Part shown: positions 1,485 through 8,894 of the stretch, piece after piece
How the letters are laid out: the number at the start of each line of letters is the position of its first letter
Numbering within the stretch: the first letter of the stretch is position 1
Origin: a virus
Length of the DNA stretch: 45,913 nt
IMG/VR virus record: IMGVR_UViG_3300049783_001779
Location: 1-45,913 of that record
Strand: one strand, 5' to 3'
The notes under the pieces: model-generated
What the model saw: the letters and a program-made list of their open reading frames with translations, nothing else
Told to the model about the DNA's origin: nothing
The model's database searches: none
Made by a program: the position numbers and the translations under genes

Positions 1485-2921
1485 ATGAAATTAATACACG
1501 AAAAATTTAAAAACTTAACCACTGCATTTAATGTTAGATGGGACTACTCTGGTTTAAGAAAATATAAAGCTGACGGCATCGAAATTCATCAAAAAGAATG
1601 GGACCAAACTTTGATTACACGAATTAATGAGTTATCAGCTCAAATTCATATGTCTACTCTTTTAGGCCCAGCAGACACTGTTGTAACCAATTCAAAATGC
1701 GCAAGCTTGATTCATAGTTTTGAATATTATGACCACAAAACAAATCGCATAGGAAAAAGGTATGAATTAATTATTGACGATTCAATAAAAGAAGACAGAG
1801 TATATGTTTATAATTTAGAAAAAGTAGACGAATGTCCTTCTGACAAATTAAAAAGATTGATGGGAATGATTATTATTGATAATTTGGTTATAAAAAATAA
1901 AGTTGCATTCCTTACGGGTATCACTGGTCAGGATGGGTCCTATCTTGCAGAGCTCCTTTTGGAAAAAGGATACATCGTACACGCAACAATGAGAAGAGCG
2001 TCAACCTTCAACACAGAAAGAATCGAGCACATAATGGGCCACGAAAGATTGCACCTTCATCATGGTGATATTACAGACCCTACAAACATCATGAGGTTGA
2101 TGTCTGAGATTAAACCAAATGAGATTTATAACCTGGCAGCTCAATCGCATGTTGCAGTCTCTTTTGAGGTTCCTCACTACACAGCAAATGTAGACGCCCT
2201 TGGAACACTTACTATTCTTGAGGCGATGAGAGCTCATTGCCCAGCTGCCAAATTCTATCAAGCCTCTACTTCTGAGTTGTATGGAGGGCTTGAGTACAAT
2301 AAGAACAGCGAAGGATTCTATGATGAAGATTCTCAAATGCATCCAAGAAGCCCATACGGATGCGCCAAGCTTTATGGTTTTTGGATAATTAGAAACTATC
2401 GTGAATCTTATGGATTGTTTGCATGTAATGGAATTTTATTCAATCACGAAAGCGAAAGAAGAGGGAAAACTTTTGTTACCAGAAAGATTACAACCAACAT
2501 GGCTCAAATAAAAAAAGACAAGCGTGATGTTTTGACTATTGGTAATATGGAGGCAGAAAGAGATTGGGGACATGCTCAGGAGTACGTAGAGGGCATGTGG
2601 AGAATGTTACAACAAGATAGTCCACAAGATTTTGTTCTTGCAACAGGAAAGACTTATAAAGTTCGTACATTTATTGAAATGACTGCTAAACATCTTGGTT
2701 GGGAAATTGAGTGGAAAGGCGAAGGGGTAGAAGAAAAAGGATACGACAAGAAAACTGGAAAATTACTTGTTGAAGTAGACCCAAGATATTTTAGACCAGC
2801 TGAAGTTGATAGATTAATCGGAGACCCATCAAAAGCAAAAGCCATTCTTGGATGGGAAGCTAAGATTGACCTTGACGAGCTTGTTGAGAGAATGGTTAAA
2901 CATGATTTAGAGCACGAATGA
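1485..2921 (+). CDS. gmd: GDP-mannose 4,6-dehydratase with a fused N-terminal phage-type domain
   Basis: This 478-residue protein has two parts. Residues about 138-478 are a complete GDP-mannose 4,6-dehydratase (SDR, NADP-dependent): nucleotide-binding TGITGQDGSYLAELL at 144-158, NADP-binding RRAS, catalytic T262-S-E264 (STSELYG) and the YxxxK pair Y291/K295 (SPYGCAK). It converts GDP-D-mannose to GDP-4-keto-6-deoxy-D-mannose. A normal enzyme starts 2-4 residues before the first Rossmann strand; here about 137 residues precede it. That extension (LLGPADTVVTNSK, then GKRYELIIDDS...DRVYVYN) recalls the GPxNxIVTN and RxKVYID segments of T4-like capsid proteins. ATG 1485 is preferred over an in-frame TTG at 1440. 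Internal ATGs at 1860 and 1866 could yield a stand-alone enzyme, but no Shine-Dalgarno is seen there. Its stop overlaps the next start (ATGA). Confidence 0.9.
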   Translation: MKLIHEKFKNLTTAFNVRWDYSGLRKYKADGIEIHQKEWDQTLITRINELSAQIHMSTLLGPADTVVTNSKCASLIHSFEYYDHKTNRIGKRYELIIDDSIKEDRVYVYNLEKVDECPSDKLKRLMGMIIIDNLVIKNKVAFLTGITGQDGSYLAELLLEKGYIVHATMRRASTFNTERIEHIMGHERLHLHHGDITDPTNIMRLMSEIKPNEIYNLAAQSHVAVSFEVPHYTANVDALGTLTILEAMRAHCPAAKFYQASTSELYGGLEYNKNSEGFYDEDSQMHPRSPYGCAKLYGFWIIRNYRESYGLFACNGILFNHESERRGKTFVTRKITTNMAQIKKDKRDVLTIGNMEAERDWGHAQEYVEGMWRMLQQDSPQDFVLATGKTYKVRTFIEMTAKHLGWEIEWKGEGVEEKGYDKKTGKLLVEVDPRYFRPAEVDRLIGDPSKAKAILGWEAKIDLDELVERMVKHDLEHE

Positions 2922-3854: not shown

Positions 3855-5480
3855 ATGAAATTCAAAAAATTAACTGAAGATGATATTCTTCATGCGAAGG
3901 AGATATACTACTCTGCGCACCTTGCTTATGATGAAAGGGTAAGCAGGCTAATGGAGTTCTTTGGCAAGGGCGAGAAAACAACGAGAAATTGGCTTGTAAA
4001 GCTGGGAATAAAAAAGACAACCACAGAGGATTCTCCTCAATTTAAAAAAGCTAAGAAGAAAACAATTAGTAAAAAGTCCAAAAGATTTATATTTACATGG
4101 GCACAAAACAACACTCCAGTTCACGAAGTGTTTCTAAGAAACATTGAAGCTTATGCTAAAGAGATTGATGCAGAAGTTCATATCATAGCTGGAAGATATA
4201 AAAATCCAACATCAGTATTTGACGATAAAGATTTTGAATCTTGGCATTCAAGAGTGGAGCCTTATTTATTTGCTGCAAGACAAAATGCCCATAAGCATTT
4301 AATTGTTTGTGGTGATGTTAAAATTTCTCCTACAGCCACAAATCCAATGACATCAATGGAAGGTTTCTCTGGTCCAGAATCGTCTATATTTGGACACCCT
4401 AAGATGCAGATGCGAATGGTTGCAGCATTAGAAGGCACAGCACCGAAGATGATGATGACAACTGGAGCTGTAACAGTAGAAAACTACACAGACTCAAAAG
4501 CTGGTAAAAAAGGAGAGTTTCACCACACTCTTGGTTTTGTCGTTGTTGAAATTAAAGACGAGAACGTTTTTTACACAAGACAAGTGACTGCAACTGAAGA
4601 TGGAAACTTTAACGACCTTTATTACAATGTCTCTTTTGATGGAGACTATGAAAGTGTGGACATAATTCCAGGATTAACATTCCAAGGAGAAGAGTTACAG
4701 GGCAAAACAAAAATAAAAAGAAATAAAACAGTTGATGGGGCTATTCTTGGAGATATTCACTTTGGAGAAACAGATAAAGATGTAATGAATACAACTTTGA
4801 ATGTTTTATTTAAAAAGCTGAAACCGAAAGAGGTAGTTCTTCATGATGTGTTTGACGGACACTCTATTAGTCATCACGACAGAAAAGACGCTTTTGCTCA
4901 GTATAAAAAGGAAATCTCTGGAAAGAATGACCTTAAAAAAGAAATTGACTTCATGCTTGATGGCCTTGAGGTTTTTAAGAAATACAAGACAATCATTGTT
5001 AGAAGTAATCATGATGACTTCCTTGATAGATGGCTTAGAGATGTTGACTGGAGGAAAGAGGCAACAATGAAAAATTCTGTGTGCTACATGAATTATGCAG
5101 CCTTGTTGCTTGGAGAAGACGCTCAAGATGGAGTTATCCCTTACTTGATTAATGAAAGGTATCCTAATTTTATCACACTCGGTAGAAGTCATACTCATAG
5201 GATTCATGAATGGGAAGTTGGTCAACATGGAGACATTGGAGCTTCAGGTAGTCGTGGCTCAATTGTTCAGTTTAGAAAGTTGAGTACAAAAATGATTATT
5301 GGACACTCGCACTCCCCAGGGCGTATGGATGGAGTAATTCAAGTAGGAACCTCAACAGTTCTTAGAGTTGGGTATAATCTTGGGCCAAGCCCATGGCTTC
5401 AGTCTCACTCAATTATTCACTCAGATGGAAAATCTCAACAGATACATTTCATCAAAGGAGAATTCACAACATTTGAATAA
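3855..5480 (+). CDS. T5 A1-like calcineurin-fold metallophosphoesterase
   Basis: The 541-residue protein has a basic N-terminal segment (1-75) with a possible helix-turn-helix, a middle region containing SIFGHPKMQMR and KAGKKGEFHHTLG, and a C-terminal metallophosphoesterase domain. Metal-site motifs in order are GDIHFG (Asp300, His302), HDVFDGH (about 330-336, in place of GDxxD), SNHDD (Asn385, His386), SHTHR, and GHSHSPG (483-489). The GSRGS...FRK...GHSHSPG...GYNLGPS ordering matches my recollection of phage T5 A1, the pre-early protein needed for host DNA degradation and completion of T5 DNA entry. The fold is clear from the motifs; the A1 relationship is from memory and the function is inferred. 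A host-type promoter upstream fits early expression. Confidence 0.8.
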   Translation: MKFKKLTEDDILHAKEIYYSAHLAYDERVSRLMEFFGKGEKTTRNWLVKLGIKKTTTEDSPQFKKAKKKTISKKSKRFIFTWAQNNTPVHEVFLRNIEAYAKEIDAEVHIIAGRYKNPTSVFDDKDFESWHSRVEPYLFAARQNAHKHLIVCGDVKISPTATNPMTSMEGFSGPESSIFGHPKMQMRMVAALEGTAPKMMMTTGAVTVENYTDSKAGKKGEFHHTLGFVVVEIKDENVFYTRQVTATEDGNFNDLYYNVSFDGDYESVDIIPGLTFQGEELQGKTKIKRNKTVDGAILGDIHFGETDKDVMNTTLNVLFKKLKPKEVVLHDVFDGHSISHHDRKDAFAQYKKEISGKNDLKKEIDFMLDGLEVFKKYKTIIVRSNHDDFLDRWLRDVDWRKEATMKNSVCYMNYAALLLGEDAQDGVIPYLINERYPNFITLGRSHTHRIHEWEVGQHGDIGASGSRGSIVQFRKLSTKMIIGHSHSPGRMDGVIQVGTSTVLRVGYNLGPSPWLQSHSIIHSDGKSQQIHFIKGEFTTFE

Positions 5481-6599: not shown

Positions 6600-7418
6600 A
6601 TGGCTAAAAACAAAAAGTCTTCAAAAAAGACGACAACCAAAAAAACGACTGTAACTACAGTTACAACTACTACCACAACGGTAGACAAAAACCTTGACAC
6701 GCACTATCTTTTAGTATTAGATAGAAGCGGTTCTATGAGCTCATGTTGGAAGTCAACAATCAGTGGATTAAACGAGCAACTTGGAACAATCAGACACCTT
6801 GAAGAAAAGTATCCTGAACAAAAATATTTTGTATCACTTGTTGTATTTGATACAGAAATTGAAACAATATTAGAAAACGAACCTATTTCAAAAGTTGAAA
6901 ACTTTGATGGGACTGAGTTTCCTCCAAGAGGCGGAACTGCATTGCATGATGCAATTGGAGTTGGTATCTCAAATCTTAGAGTTCAATTAGACAAGAAAGA
7001 AGGAAAAAGCCTTTCAACAGCTCTTGTTGTTGTTATGACTGATGGTGAAGAAAACTCATCAAGAGAGCATGGCGCTGATTCTATTAAAAAGATTATCTGT
7101 GAGCTTGAAGAAACTGGAGCATGGACATTTAGCTACATGGGAGCAAATCAAGACGCTGTTTTAGCGGCAAGTAGATTTGGAATTTCTTCTGGAAATGCAA
7201 TCAACTACGCTTCAACAGAAAAAGGAGCCTCTGCTGCATATGACACTTTGTCAAAAGGAATTATGTCAAGAGCTCAGACAAGCAATGTTTCTTATATGGC
7301 TTCAGCCTCTTTGGGAGATGTTACACTTGATGCAATGGCTATGGATAACACAACTTTCTTCTCAAACGTAGTTGAAGGAGACACGGTTGAAGAAGAGGAT
7401 TCTGAAGAAAAAGCATAA
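6600..7418 (+). CDS. VWA-domain protein with intact MIDAS motif
   Basis: This 272-residue protein starts with a Lys/Thr low-complexity tail (1-30), then a von Willebrand factor A domain (about 33-230). The metal-ion-dependent adhesion site is complete: DRSGSM (Asp41, Ser43, Ser45), Thr113 in GGTALHD and Asp148 in MTDGEEN. The C-terminus is acidic (VEEEDSEEKA). No signal peptide or membrane segment, so it should be cytoplasmic or virion-associated. VWA domains mediate protein contacts, for example with TerY-like or MoxR partners, but no partner gene is adjacent. Weak TATTTAGA/TATTTAAA boxes at 6569 and 6583 precede the ATG. A structured-RNA candidate begins 9 nt after its stop. Confidence 0.85.
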   Translation: MAKNKKSSKKTTTKKTTVTTVTTTTTTVDKNLDTHYLLVLDRSGSMSSCWKSTISGLNEQLGTIRHLEEKYPEQKYFVSLVVFDTEIETILENEPISKVENFDGTEFPPRGGTALHDAIGVGISNLRVQLDKKEGKSLSTALVVVMTDGEENSSREHGADSIKKIICELEETGAWTFSYMGANQDAVLAASRFGISSGNAINYASTEKGASAAYDTLSKGIMSRAQTSNVSYMASASLGDVTLDAMAMDNTTFFSNVVEGDTVEEEDSEEKA

Positions 7419-7426
7419 TTTGTTTT

Positions 7427-7556
7427 TGCACCGACACGAAAAAGGGTTAACATTAGTGAGAGTAAACCAGTAACCCTGCGTGGCATAGCACAAGACCCAG
7501 CAGACTCTATGCGCTACTTTGTCTGGCATGCTGTTAGACTCTCTTTAGTCGGTGCA
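7427..7556 (+). ncRNA. Candidate structured non-coding RNA with nested helices and pseudoknots
   Basis: No gene lies between 7419 and 7691, but the first half is highly self-complementary. A closing stem pairs TGCACCGAC (7427-7435) with GTCGGTGCA (7548-7556), 9 bp perfect. Inside, GGGTTA (7444-7449) pairs with TAACCC (7471-7476), and its loop carries GAGAGT (7459-7464), complementary to ACTCTC (7538-7543): a pseudoknot. CAGAC (7501-7505) pairs with GTCTG (7521-7525), and that loop holds CTATGC (7507-7512), complementary to GCATAG (7483-7488): a second possible pseudoknot or an alternative hairpin. Local G+C is higher than in flanking DNA. A terminator follows directly. It could be a free small RNA processed from the VWA transcript or an aptamer in the leader of the glycosyltransferase operon. 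I do not recognise the family. Confidence 0.65.
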
Positions 7557-7567
7557 TTTATGAATTT

Positions 7568-7605
7568 AAAAAAGACCAAGATTTATTTCTTGGTCTTTTT
7601 TTTTT
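7568..7605 (+). terminator. Rho-independent terminator after the structured RNA
   Basis: An 11-bp stem pairs AAAAGACCAAG (7570-7580) with CTTGGTCTTTT (7589-7599), loop 8 nt, followed by a run of Ts to 7605. It separates the VWA/RNA unit from the glycosyltransferase operon. Confidence 0.9.
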
Positions 7606-7640
7606 AAAAACTATTTATTTTACTATTTATGCTTTCTATA

Positions 7641-7691: not shown

Positions 7692-8894
7692 ATGGAAAAG
7701 AATACTGAAGTACAAGAAGTACAACAAGAGGTAAAGCAACCAAGTCAAAATGAAGTAATCGACAATGCGATTGGTAATCTTAGAGAAAATAAATTTAAGA
7801 CCTACTTCTATTGTCCACCAATGAATTCACCAAGCGGTGGAATCGGGGTGCTTTTAAAAGCGGCTAAGAATCTATCAGATGATGGATTTGATGTTACATT
7901 GGTTTACGAGCCAAGACAAGACCAGAAAGCATCTTACGAAGCATCTGCTAAAGCTAAAAAACAAACCGATATATTTGAAAGATTCAATCCTACTTGGGTT
8001 GATTTCGATATTTCAAACATTTCTATACTCCCTCTTGGAGATAAAAAAATTAAATTCTCAGATGGGACGGAGCAAGATTGTATCCCTCTTAATGTGAGTC
8101 CAGAAGATTTTTTAATCATTCCTGAAGGTTTTCCAGATGTAATGAAAAAGACAATGCAAGTTTCTTGTAAAAGAATTGTATTCGCACAAAGTTGGTTCTA
8201 CGTGCTTAATGCAATGCAGCCAGGAGAAAAGTGGCAACACTTTGGGATTACTGATGTAATTTCTGCATCTGACGCAATTTCTGAATACTTAGTATCAGTT
8301 ATGCCAGGTCTTAACATAAAAGATTTCAAACAAGGAATTAATAGAGAATACTTTAAAGTTCCTGAAAAAATATCTGATAAACTTCCTATGGTTGCATTTT
8401 CCGCATCAAGAGGTCCAGAGAACAAATTAAAAACATACAATATCATCAAAACGTTTTACGCATTCTATCCTCACCTTAAGTGGGTTAGATTTCAAGAGCT
8501 TGAAGGTATGGATAGAGAACAATTTGCTGAGAGATTAGGGAACTGTGCATTCTATTTATATACAGATGACATTGCAGGATTTGGTACAGCACCGCTTGAA
8601 GCAATGGCTTGCGGGACTCACACTATTGGATGGGCTTCATTCGGTGGTAAAGAATACATGAATAATGAAAACGGGTTCTGGTGTAACAATGGAGACATTT
8701 TCCAGACTGCAGAAATCATGGGTATCGCTATCGACAAATGGTTGAATGGTGATATGGACGGTGGAGAAATCCAAGGCGTATACGAAGAGACTCTTAGCAA
8801 ATACACTACTGAGGGAGAAAAAGAAAATATTTTAAACCTATTAAATCAATACAAAGATGAAAGAATCAAAGAACTTGAAAGCCTCAAGCAGTAA
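7692..8894 (+). CDS. GT-B fold glycosyltransferase (GT4-like)
   Basis: This 400-residue protein has a short Glu/Gln-rich N-terminus (1-25). The region near residues 38-66 (CPPMNSPSGGIGVLLKAAKN) matches the glycine-rich donor-proximal loop of GT-B enzymes. The segment GFGTAPLEAMACG (about 296-308) is the GT4-type EX7E-like motif that contacts the nucleotide-sugar. It is preceded by a structured RNA and terminator and followed, with a 38-nt overlap, by a second glycosyltransferase, so the pair is probably translated together. Donor and acceptor are unknown; the GDP-sugar enzymes at the left of the window make a GDP-deoxyhexose donor plausible. No membrane segment; cytoplasmic. Confidence 0.8.
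   Translation: MEKNTEVQEVQQEVKQPSQNEVIDNAIGNLRENKFKTYFYCPPMNSPSGGIGVLLKAAKNLSDDGFDVTLVYEPRQDQKASYEASAKAKKQTDIFERFNPTWVDFDISNISILPLGDKKIKFSDGTEQDCIPLNVSPEDFLIIPEGFPDVMKKTMQVSCKRIVFAQSWFYVLNAMQPGEKWQHFGITDVISASDAISEYLVSVMPGLNIKDFKQGINREYFKVPEKISDKLPMVAFSASRGPENKLKTYNIIKTFYAFYPHLKWVRFQELEGMDREQFAERLGNCAFYLYTDDIAGFGTAPLEAMACGTHTIGWASFGGKEYMNNENGFWCNNGDIFQTAEIMGIAIDKWLNGDMDGGEIQGVYEETLSKYTTEGEKENILNLLNQYKDERIKELESLKQ

Follow-up and report, generated by a model that had tools for sequence, protein, structure and literature searches.

The pseudoknots PK2-PK4 of tmRNA can largely stand in for one another and contribute to its folding and stability, and split tmRNAs are known. Phage tRNA arrays are thought to counter tRNA-cutting defences, and the put RNA of phage HK022, which to our knowledge is confined to lambdoid early operons, is a pair of simple stem-loops. 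For put RNA, see also PMC9378689.

Here we analyze a stretch of phage DNA, referred to as the window, which comprises the 45,913 bases of an IMG/VR virus record (IMGVR_UViG_3300049783_001779). A segment at positions 7427-7556 had been proposed, in a sequence-only reading, to be a new structured RNA in which the loops of both hairpins pair elsewhere, a proposal that is supported by covariation across diverse phages and by the lack of any Rfam match. Judged by comparison of sequences, the segment is almost certainly one copy of a real, pseudoknotted and autonomous RNA domain that is mainly phage-borne.

Results

The window locus

The gene content of the window, including a baseplate wedge protein, an SbcC/SbcD-like protein and sugar genes, is compatible with a myovirus. 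Positions 3855-5477 encode a large protein with a match to PHROG 1745 ('DNA transfer protein') and a metallophosphoesterase-like part. The RNA lies in a gene-free gap of 273 bp (earlier given as 270), bounded by two plus-strand reading frames. The upstream gene (6600-7418) is von Willebrand A (VWA)-like, by a weak VWA_2 match below the cut-off, and its stop codon is separated from the start of the RNA by 8 nt; the downstream gene (7692-8894) encodes a group 1 glycosyltransferase and begins 135 nt 3' of the RNA, past a terminator. This strong terminator, which had also been pointed out previously, is an intrinsic-terminator-like 14-bp hairpin followed by a T run directly 3' of the RNA (7569-7605, plus strand), and is the gap's terminator near 7605; it is retained even in relatives that lack the RNA.

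Pairings in the window RNA

All of the pairings originally named are present in the window sequence. The whole domain (7427-7556, plus strand, as are all of its parts) has the window-type permutation, with the X strand 5' and the Y strand 3', and is closed by a 9-bp helix between TGCACCGAC (7427-7435) and GTCGGTGCA (7548-7556). Helix P2 pairs GGGTTA (7444-7449) with TAACCC (7471-7476), and the PK helix connects GAGAGT (7458-7463), inside the P2 loop, to ACTCTC (7538-7543). The small hairpin P5, GTG-GCATAG-CAC (7480-7491), has a stem of GTG (7480-7482) and CAC (7489-7491) and a loop, GCATAG (7483-7488), whose partner CTATGC is found at 7507-7512; P3, a pairing assigned by reading the sequence, joins AGAC (7502-7505) to GTCT (7521-7524).

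Two further helices had been overlooked: P1, of 2-3 bp, between CAC (7435-7437) and GTG (7456-7458), and P4, between CAG (7468-7470) and CTG (7531-7533). The ends of P1 compete with the closing helix and the PK helix, and 2 bp are certain. P1 makes the main hairpin an H-type pseudoknot. Three additional strands are conserved: the A-rich GAAAAA between P1 and P2 (7438-7443), nearly invariant in 27 diverse copies; GACCCAG (7494-7500), the conserved ACCC joining strand, which is identical in the relatives L001 and L003 and reads NACCC in most copies; and the Y strand, GCTGTTAG (7530-7537), for which GCTNTTAG was present in 27/27 aligned copies, a figure partly imposed by collecting copies with a Y motif.

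The argument that so many exact complements would be unlikely by chance proved weak by itself, as the single-sequence folding energy of 7427-7556 is only moderately unusual (z -2.1; 6 of 200 shuffles equal or better). A more extreme value for 7419-7610 (z -4.85) arises largely because the terminator is included. With a single-sequence energy that is only mildly unusual, the case therefore rests on comparative evidence.

Close relatives of the window copy

Seven loci (L001-L007) were found as relatives of the genes flanking the window RNA. The RNA is present in L001/L002 and L003, together with an extra arm of about 60-62 nt. In both L001 and L003, this arm separates the P5-loop partner from the 3' strand of P3, and it contains two CAGGA-N6-TCTG hairpin-like repeats that the window does not have. 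Only the closing stem of the RNA remains in L004, and L005-L007 have the terminator and no RNA; since the gene order is the same in these loci, the RNA appears to be dispensable.

Aligning the window with L001 and L003, we found 51 of 51 cells paired in the closing stem and in both the main and the small hairpin, with double changes in four of 17 pairs. Eight pairs of the closing helix could be counted in the two relatives; all eight were kept, and two were double-changed (C-G/U-A and C-G/G-C). A pair of the P5 stem changes from G-C to A-U in L001, and the kissing pair GCATAG/CTATGC becomes, as read from the sequences, ACTAT/ATAGT in L003 and CCAT/GTGG in L001.

Distribution among phages

A BLAST search with the RNA of L003 gave weak matches of 42-46 nt in Bacillus phage Eldridge, Proteus phages Stubb and PL1, Klebsiella phage VLCpiM5b and Pectobacterium phage PM2. 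These sequences have the same core, with the 3' strand moved to the front in most of them. Searches started from the copies of these five phages led to Mosigvirus and other T4-like phages, Demerecviridae, RaK2-like jumbo phages, phages of Vibrio, Pseudomonas and Erwinia, Microbacterium phage Pumpernickel and Cellulophaga phage phi14:2. Overall, the carriers comprise T4-like, T5-like, jumbo, Bacillus, Microbacterium, Vibrio and crAss-like phages, and the GenBank annotation at the sites of the copies examined is nearly always blank.

A first pattern, based on the ACCC strand of the window (AAGACCCAGN{0,4}AGACTC), returned 119 stretches, which beyond the known relatives were chance matches, and a second search for relatives of the window phage added nothing. 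A degenerate core pattern identified at least 120 stretches in IMG/VR, and an AGG variant of it 82; the same core pattern gave 22 matches in 84,980 GTDB genomes, about 10 of which were rejected as chance (L308, L310, L311, L315, L319, L320, L324-L326 and L329). The total of about 200 candidates corresponds to 198 non-identical stretches, a small part of them chance matches. A Y strand was recognisable in 132 of the 198, and 118 of these 132 also keep P1 and the PK helix.

Family consensus and covariation

Family statistics were computed with scripts on a stitched alignment, using a set of 27 copies (<88% identity, both topologies stitched into one order) and a set of 73 representatives (<80% identity). 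The consensus of the X strand is P1 5' - GAAAA - A - RGGTT(W) - NNAKTA - P1 3' - PK 5' - AAAC - NAG - (W)AACCY - NG... - ACCC, and that of the Y strand is GCTN - TTAG - PK 3' (GCTNTTAG-PK'). In the core, P1 is intertwined with P2 to give an H-type pseudoknot (GAAAA-RGGTT...AGTA...AACCY), and the P2 loop pairs with the distant Y strand bearing GCTNTTAG. About 27 bases of the core are nearly invariant, many of them unpaired.

The search patterns imposed GGTT/AACC, a G-C or A-U at the outer P2 pair, the A-G of NAG and part of Y, the list of Y motifs having been drawn up after inspection of copies found by complementarity; no constraint was placed on PK, on P1, on the inner pair of P2 or on the N/N pair of CTN/NAG. 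Among the 27 copies, 98.3% of cells were paired, and the covariation score was 0.696, compared with 0.168 +/- 0.020 after shuffling (0/500), a control that takes no account of phylogeny, and with no more than 0.101 in slid registers. All six PK pairs show double changes, with 98.1% of cells paired in this set; among the 73 representatives, the PK helix has a mean length of 7.04 bp versus 4.25 bp when shuffled, and P1 a mean run of 3.04 bp versus 1.05 bp. P1 covaries at pair 1 (C-G/G-C/U-G) and at pair 2 (A-U/G-C/U-A/C-G). The free pair of P4 is C-G in 23 and G-C in four of the 27 copies, and this N/N pair of CTN/NAG matches in 72 of the 73 representatives (0 of 2000 shuffles). The last, inner pair of P2 is also free to vary (U-A 14, A-U 12). 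The search for covarying pairs in other phages, which had been named as a check, gave a strong signal in the core and, in the close relatives, helices that are kept.

The strand GAATA tends to accompany C-G at CTN/NAG, while GAAAA accompanies G-C; a base triple is a possible reason for this correlation between the GAANA strand and CTN-NAG.

Circular permutations

The window-type order, X then Y, was observed in 79 copies, and the reverse, Y then X, in 53. The Y-first copies are closed by P3, which averages 8.1 bp versus 5.9 bp in shuffled pairings, covaries, and is longer than P3 of the window. One copy, L333, has its open end in the P5 arm (AATCTCTCC/GGAGAGATT), a third permutation. As the aligned copies indicate, the domain is a core of two strands, X and Y, with three peripheral arms, any one of which can be left open, so that the domain exists in three circular permutations.

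Five near-identical loci (L331, L335, L341, L369 and L378) have exchanged the P3 part among three unrelated sequence types. The exchange leaves the core and the flanks unchanged and resembles cassette swapping.

Genomic and RNA contexts

None of the 132 copies lies under a long reading frame. A tRNA was found within 500 nt of 76 of the 198 copies, always on the same strand (76/76), compared with 19% for random positions in the same loci; some copies begin about 10 nt 3' of a tRNA and others end just before the next one. Further copies begin 0-18 nt past a stop codon, and two (L196, L361) lie directly 5' of start codons. Genes for DNA polymerase, exonuclease, helicase, UvsX, nrd and ssb are frequent neighbours.

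The domain also occurs within other RNAs. Ten copies (L203, L254, L257, L265, L267, L278, L297, L303, L327 and L337) lie inside tmRNAs confirmed by RF00023, where they occupy the pseudoknot region with the core intact; L327, one short contig, is the only such case among the GTDB matches. In L173, a group I intron (RF00028, 69.8 bits) flanked by two pieces annotated as DNA polymerase carries the copy in its P6 arm. Furthermore, in L309 and L316 (MAG contigs CAJXAG010000016.1 and PAMC01000006.1) a tRNA-Leu-like RNA has the domain in place of its anticodon arm and its variable arm, and its acceptor, D-arm and T-arm are intact and covarying; this scaffold lies upstream of a reading frame that is tsaD-like, a name given by eye from the first codons. 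No further tRNA-Leu-like case was found among 286 genomes of the same class. An intron was considered for these copies and rejected, as the core assignment leaves no room for an anticodon arm.

Two GTDB contigs (L318, L321) have the domain right after a tRNA-Leu in tRNA arrays that also include a ROOL RNA and a tmRNA. A viral contig with a free copy of the domain (L247) also encodes a permuted, two-piece tmRNA (1508-1878, minus strand).

Comparison with catalogued RNA families

The Rfam 15 scan covered the window, its relatives L001 and L003, and some 35 loci bearing copies, and no family matched over the element except for host RNAs that contain the domain; the scan of the window included the wcaG motif, as had been advised, and found no match. 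Likewise, no description of the family was found in the open-access full text searched. The domain is thus previously uncatalogued in Rfam 15 and in that body of open-access text.

The window contains no tmRNA and no RF00028 match, and the element was rejected as a group I intron core, as in L173 it sits between the Q and R elements, in P6. Rfam gave no match to the hammerhead, twister, pistol, hatchet, HDV or glmS ribozymes. A type III toxin-antitoxin system is not indicated in the window, where the RNA is a single copy and its neighbours have no PADLOC or Pfam toxin hit. Upon reading the T4 sequence, we found the X/Y core absent from T4 RNA C and RNA D (T4s001/T4s002; species 1 and 2), and T4 was absent among the listed matches of the similarity searches that reached its T4-like relatives. 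Finally, the idea that the element is itself a terminator was examined as an enrichment of T runs after the PK strand and rejected (7/52 copies against a background of 6.5%).

Discussion

What role might such a domain have? The reading that we tentatively prefer, at less than an even chance, is a self-folding, cis-acting structural or protective module. A rigid cis module seems most likely because the intact core is found both free-standing and built into tmRNA, the P6 arm of an intron and a tRNA-like scaffold. The domain would fold during transcription. It would shield or insulate its carrier RNA against misfolding and against attack by 3'-5' (or 5'-3') exonucleases, and would also act as the marker of a transcript boundary. 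The window copy would guard the 3' end of the mRNA of the VWA-like gene, upstream of the terminator; alternatively, it may persist after processing as a stable RNA of about 130 nt. The free copies after stop codons and tRNAs, as well as the dispensability of the RNA, may be counted in favour of a protective module. With copies just 5' of start codons, however, protection of the 3' end of an upstream message is not the sole reading. Moreover, the nearly invariant, often unpaired bases exceed what a mere roadblock would need, an excess that points to a specific ligand, protein or catalytic site. We give just short of an even chance to a core that represents a new class of RNA, either catalytic or binding a ligand or protein specifically. 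Such a core, hammerhead-like and three-way permutable, would probably be a self-cleaving ribozyme or an RNA that binds the ribosome or a nuclease, and would be in use in phages of widely different bacteria.

The protective module is not the only reading compatible with these contexts. A stable RNA acting in trans, freed by tRNA processing or termination, might bind a conserved host target (ribosome, RNA polymerase, nuclease or defence sensor), for example as a decoy. Such a role would suit a core that is the same in phages of Enterobacteria, Vibrio, Bacillus, Microbacterium and Bacteroidota, is frequent in tRNA arrays and has, in the window, its own terminator, and the P3 arms swapped between otherwise near-identical copies have the look of an arms race. 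Nevertheless, we regard it as rather unlikely, as insertion in tmRNA and in a group I intron requires no role in trans, and no toxin or defence gene adjoins the window copy.

The embedding of intact cores in tmRNAs, in a group I intron and in a tRNA-like scaffold also argues against a self-cleaving ribozyme of a new class, in which the core would cut the transcript at one site and so separate cistrons and tRNAs, because cutting would split the host RNA, even though tmRNAs in two pieces are known. Although one conserved core in three circular permutations is a pattern known from hammerhead and twister, and copies between operon genes and between tRNAs, along with many invariant unpaired bases, speak for such an RNA, there is no match to any Rfam ribozyme and the sequence names no cleavage site; on balance we judge this reading unlikely.

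We find it improbable that the domain is a cis-acting antitermination or processing signal on the nascent transcript, similar to HK022 put RNA, which is a pair of simple stem-loops. Its placement within replication-gene operons and untranslated, Rho-exposed tRNA arrays would be appropriate for a co-transcriptional signal, but in the window the unit closes at a strong terminator immediately after the RNA, and other copies are inside a tmRNA gene.

A riboswitch for the glycosyltransferase operon, in favour of which stand the position of the RNA upstream of that gene and its aptamer-like conserved core, is highly improbable and, as for a wcaG-type or other sugar-gene riboswitch, the findings oppose it: there is no Rfam match, a terminator intervenes with no competing antiterminator seen in the window (a reservation already voiced in the sequence-only reading), relatives keep the glycosyltransferase gene with only the closing stem (L004) or no RNA (L005-L007), and the other copies, which adjoin tRNAs or genes for DNA polymerase, nrd, exonuclease and recombinase, or lie in tmRNAs, and not next to sugar genes, share no common downstream gene.

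A compact RNA domain common to T4-like, T5-like, jumbo, Bacillus, actinobacterial, Vibrio and crAss-like phages, and also part of tmRNAs and of an intron, has apparently gone unannotated even in well-studied groups, and represents an additional unexplained RNA in phage tRNA regions. Since one copy, of the Y-first type and located between tRNA-Met and tRNA-Arg, is carried by E. coli phage mogra (K-12 MG1655), its role is directly testable. The domain also offers a natural three-permutation system for studying RNA folding or catalysis.

Several known RNAs resemble the domain in part. The rnaC and rnaD of T4 are likewise unexplained stable RNAs in a phage tRNA cluster, but they are missing the X/Y core. 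GOLLD and ROOL are also phage-borne structured RNAs associated with tRNA arrays, although they are hundreds of nucleotides long and share neither the core nor an Rfam match with the domain. ToxI and CptI of type III toxin-antitoxin systems are compact H-type pseudoknots as well, whereas the domain is larger, single, without an adjoining toxin gene and without an Rfam match to them. HK022 put is a phage cis-acting RNA too, but a much simpler one, made of stem-loops. Hammerhead and twister have in common with the domain a conserved core and several circular permutations that depend on which of the arms is open; there is no match in sequence or in Rfam. In comparison with standard tmRNA pseudoknots, as they are generally known, the domain differs in sequence, in its third-strand PK helix and in its permutations, and most copies lie outside tmRNA; yet, being itself a pseudoknot, it fills the region of PK2-PK4 (RF00023) in ten phage or phage-like tmRNAs.
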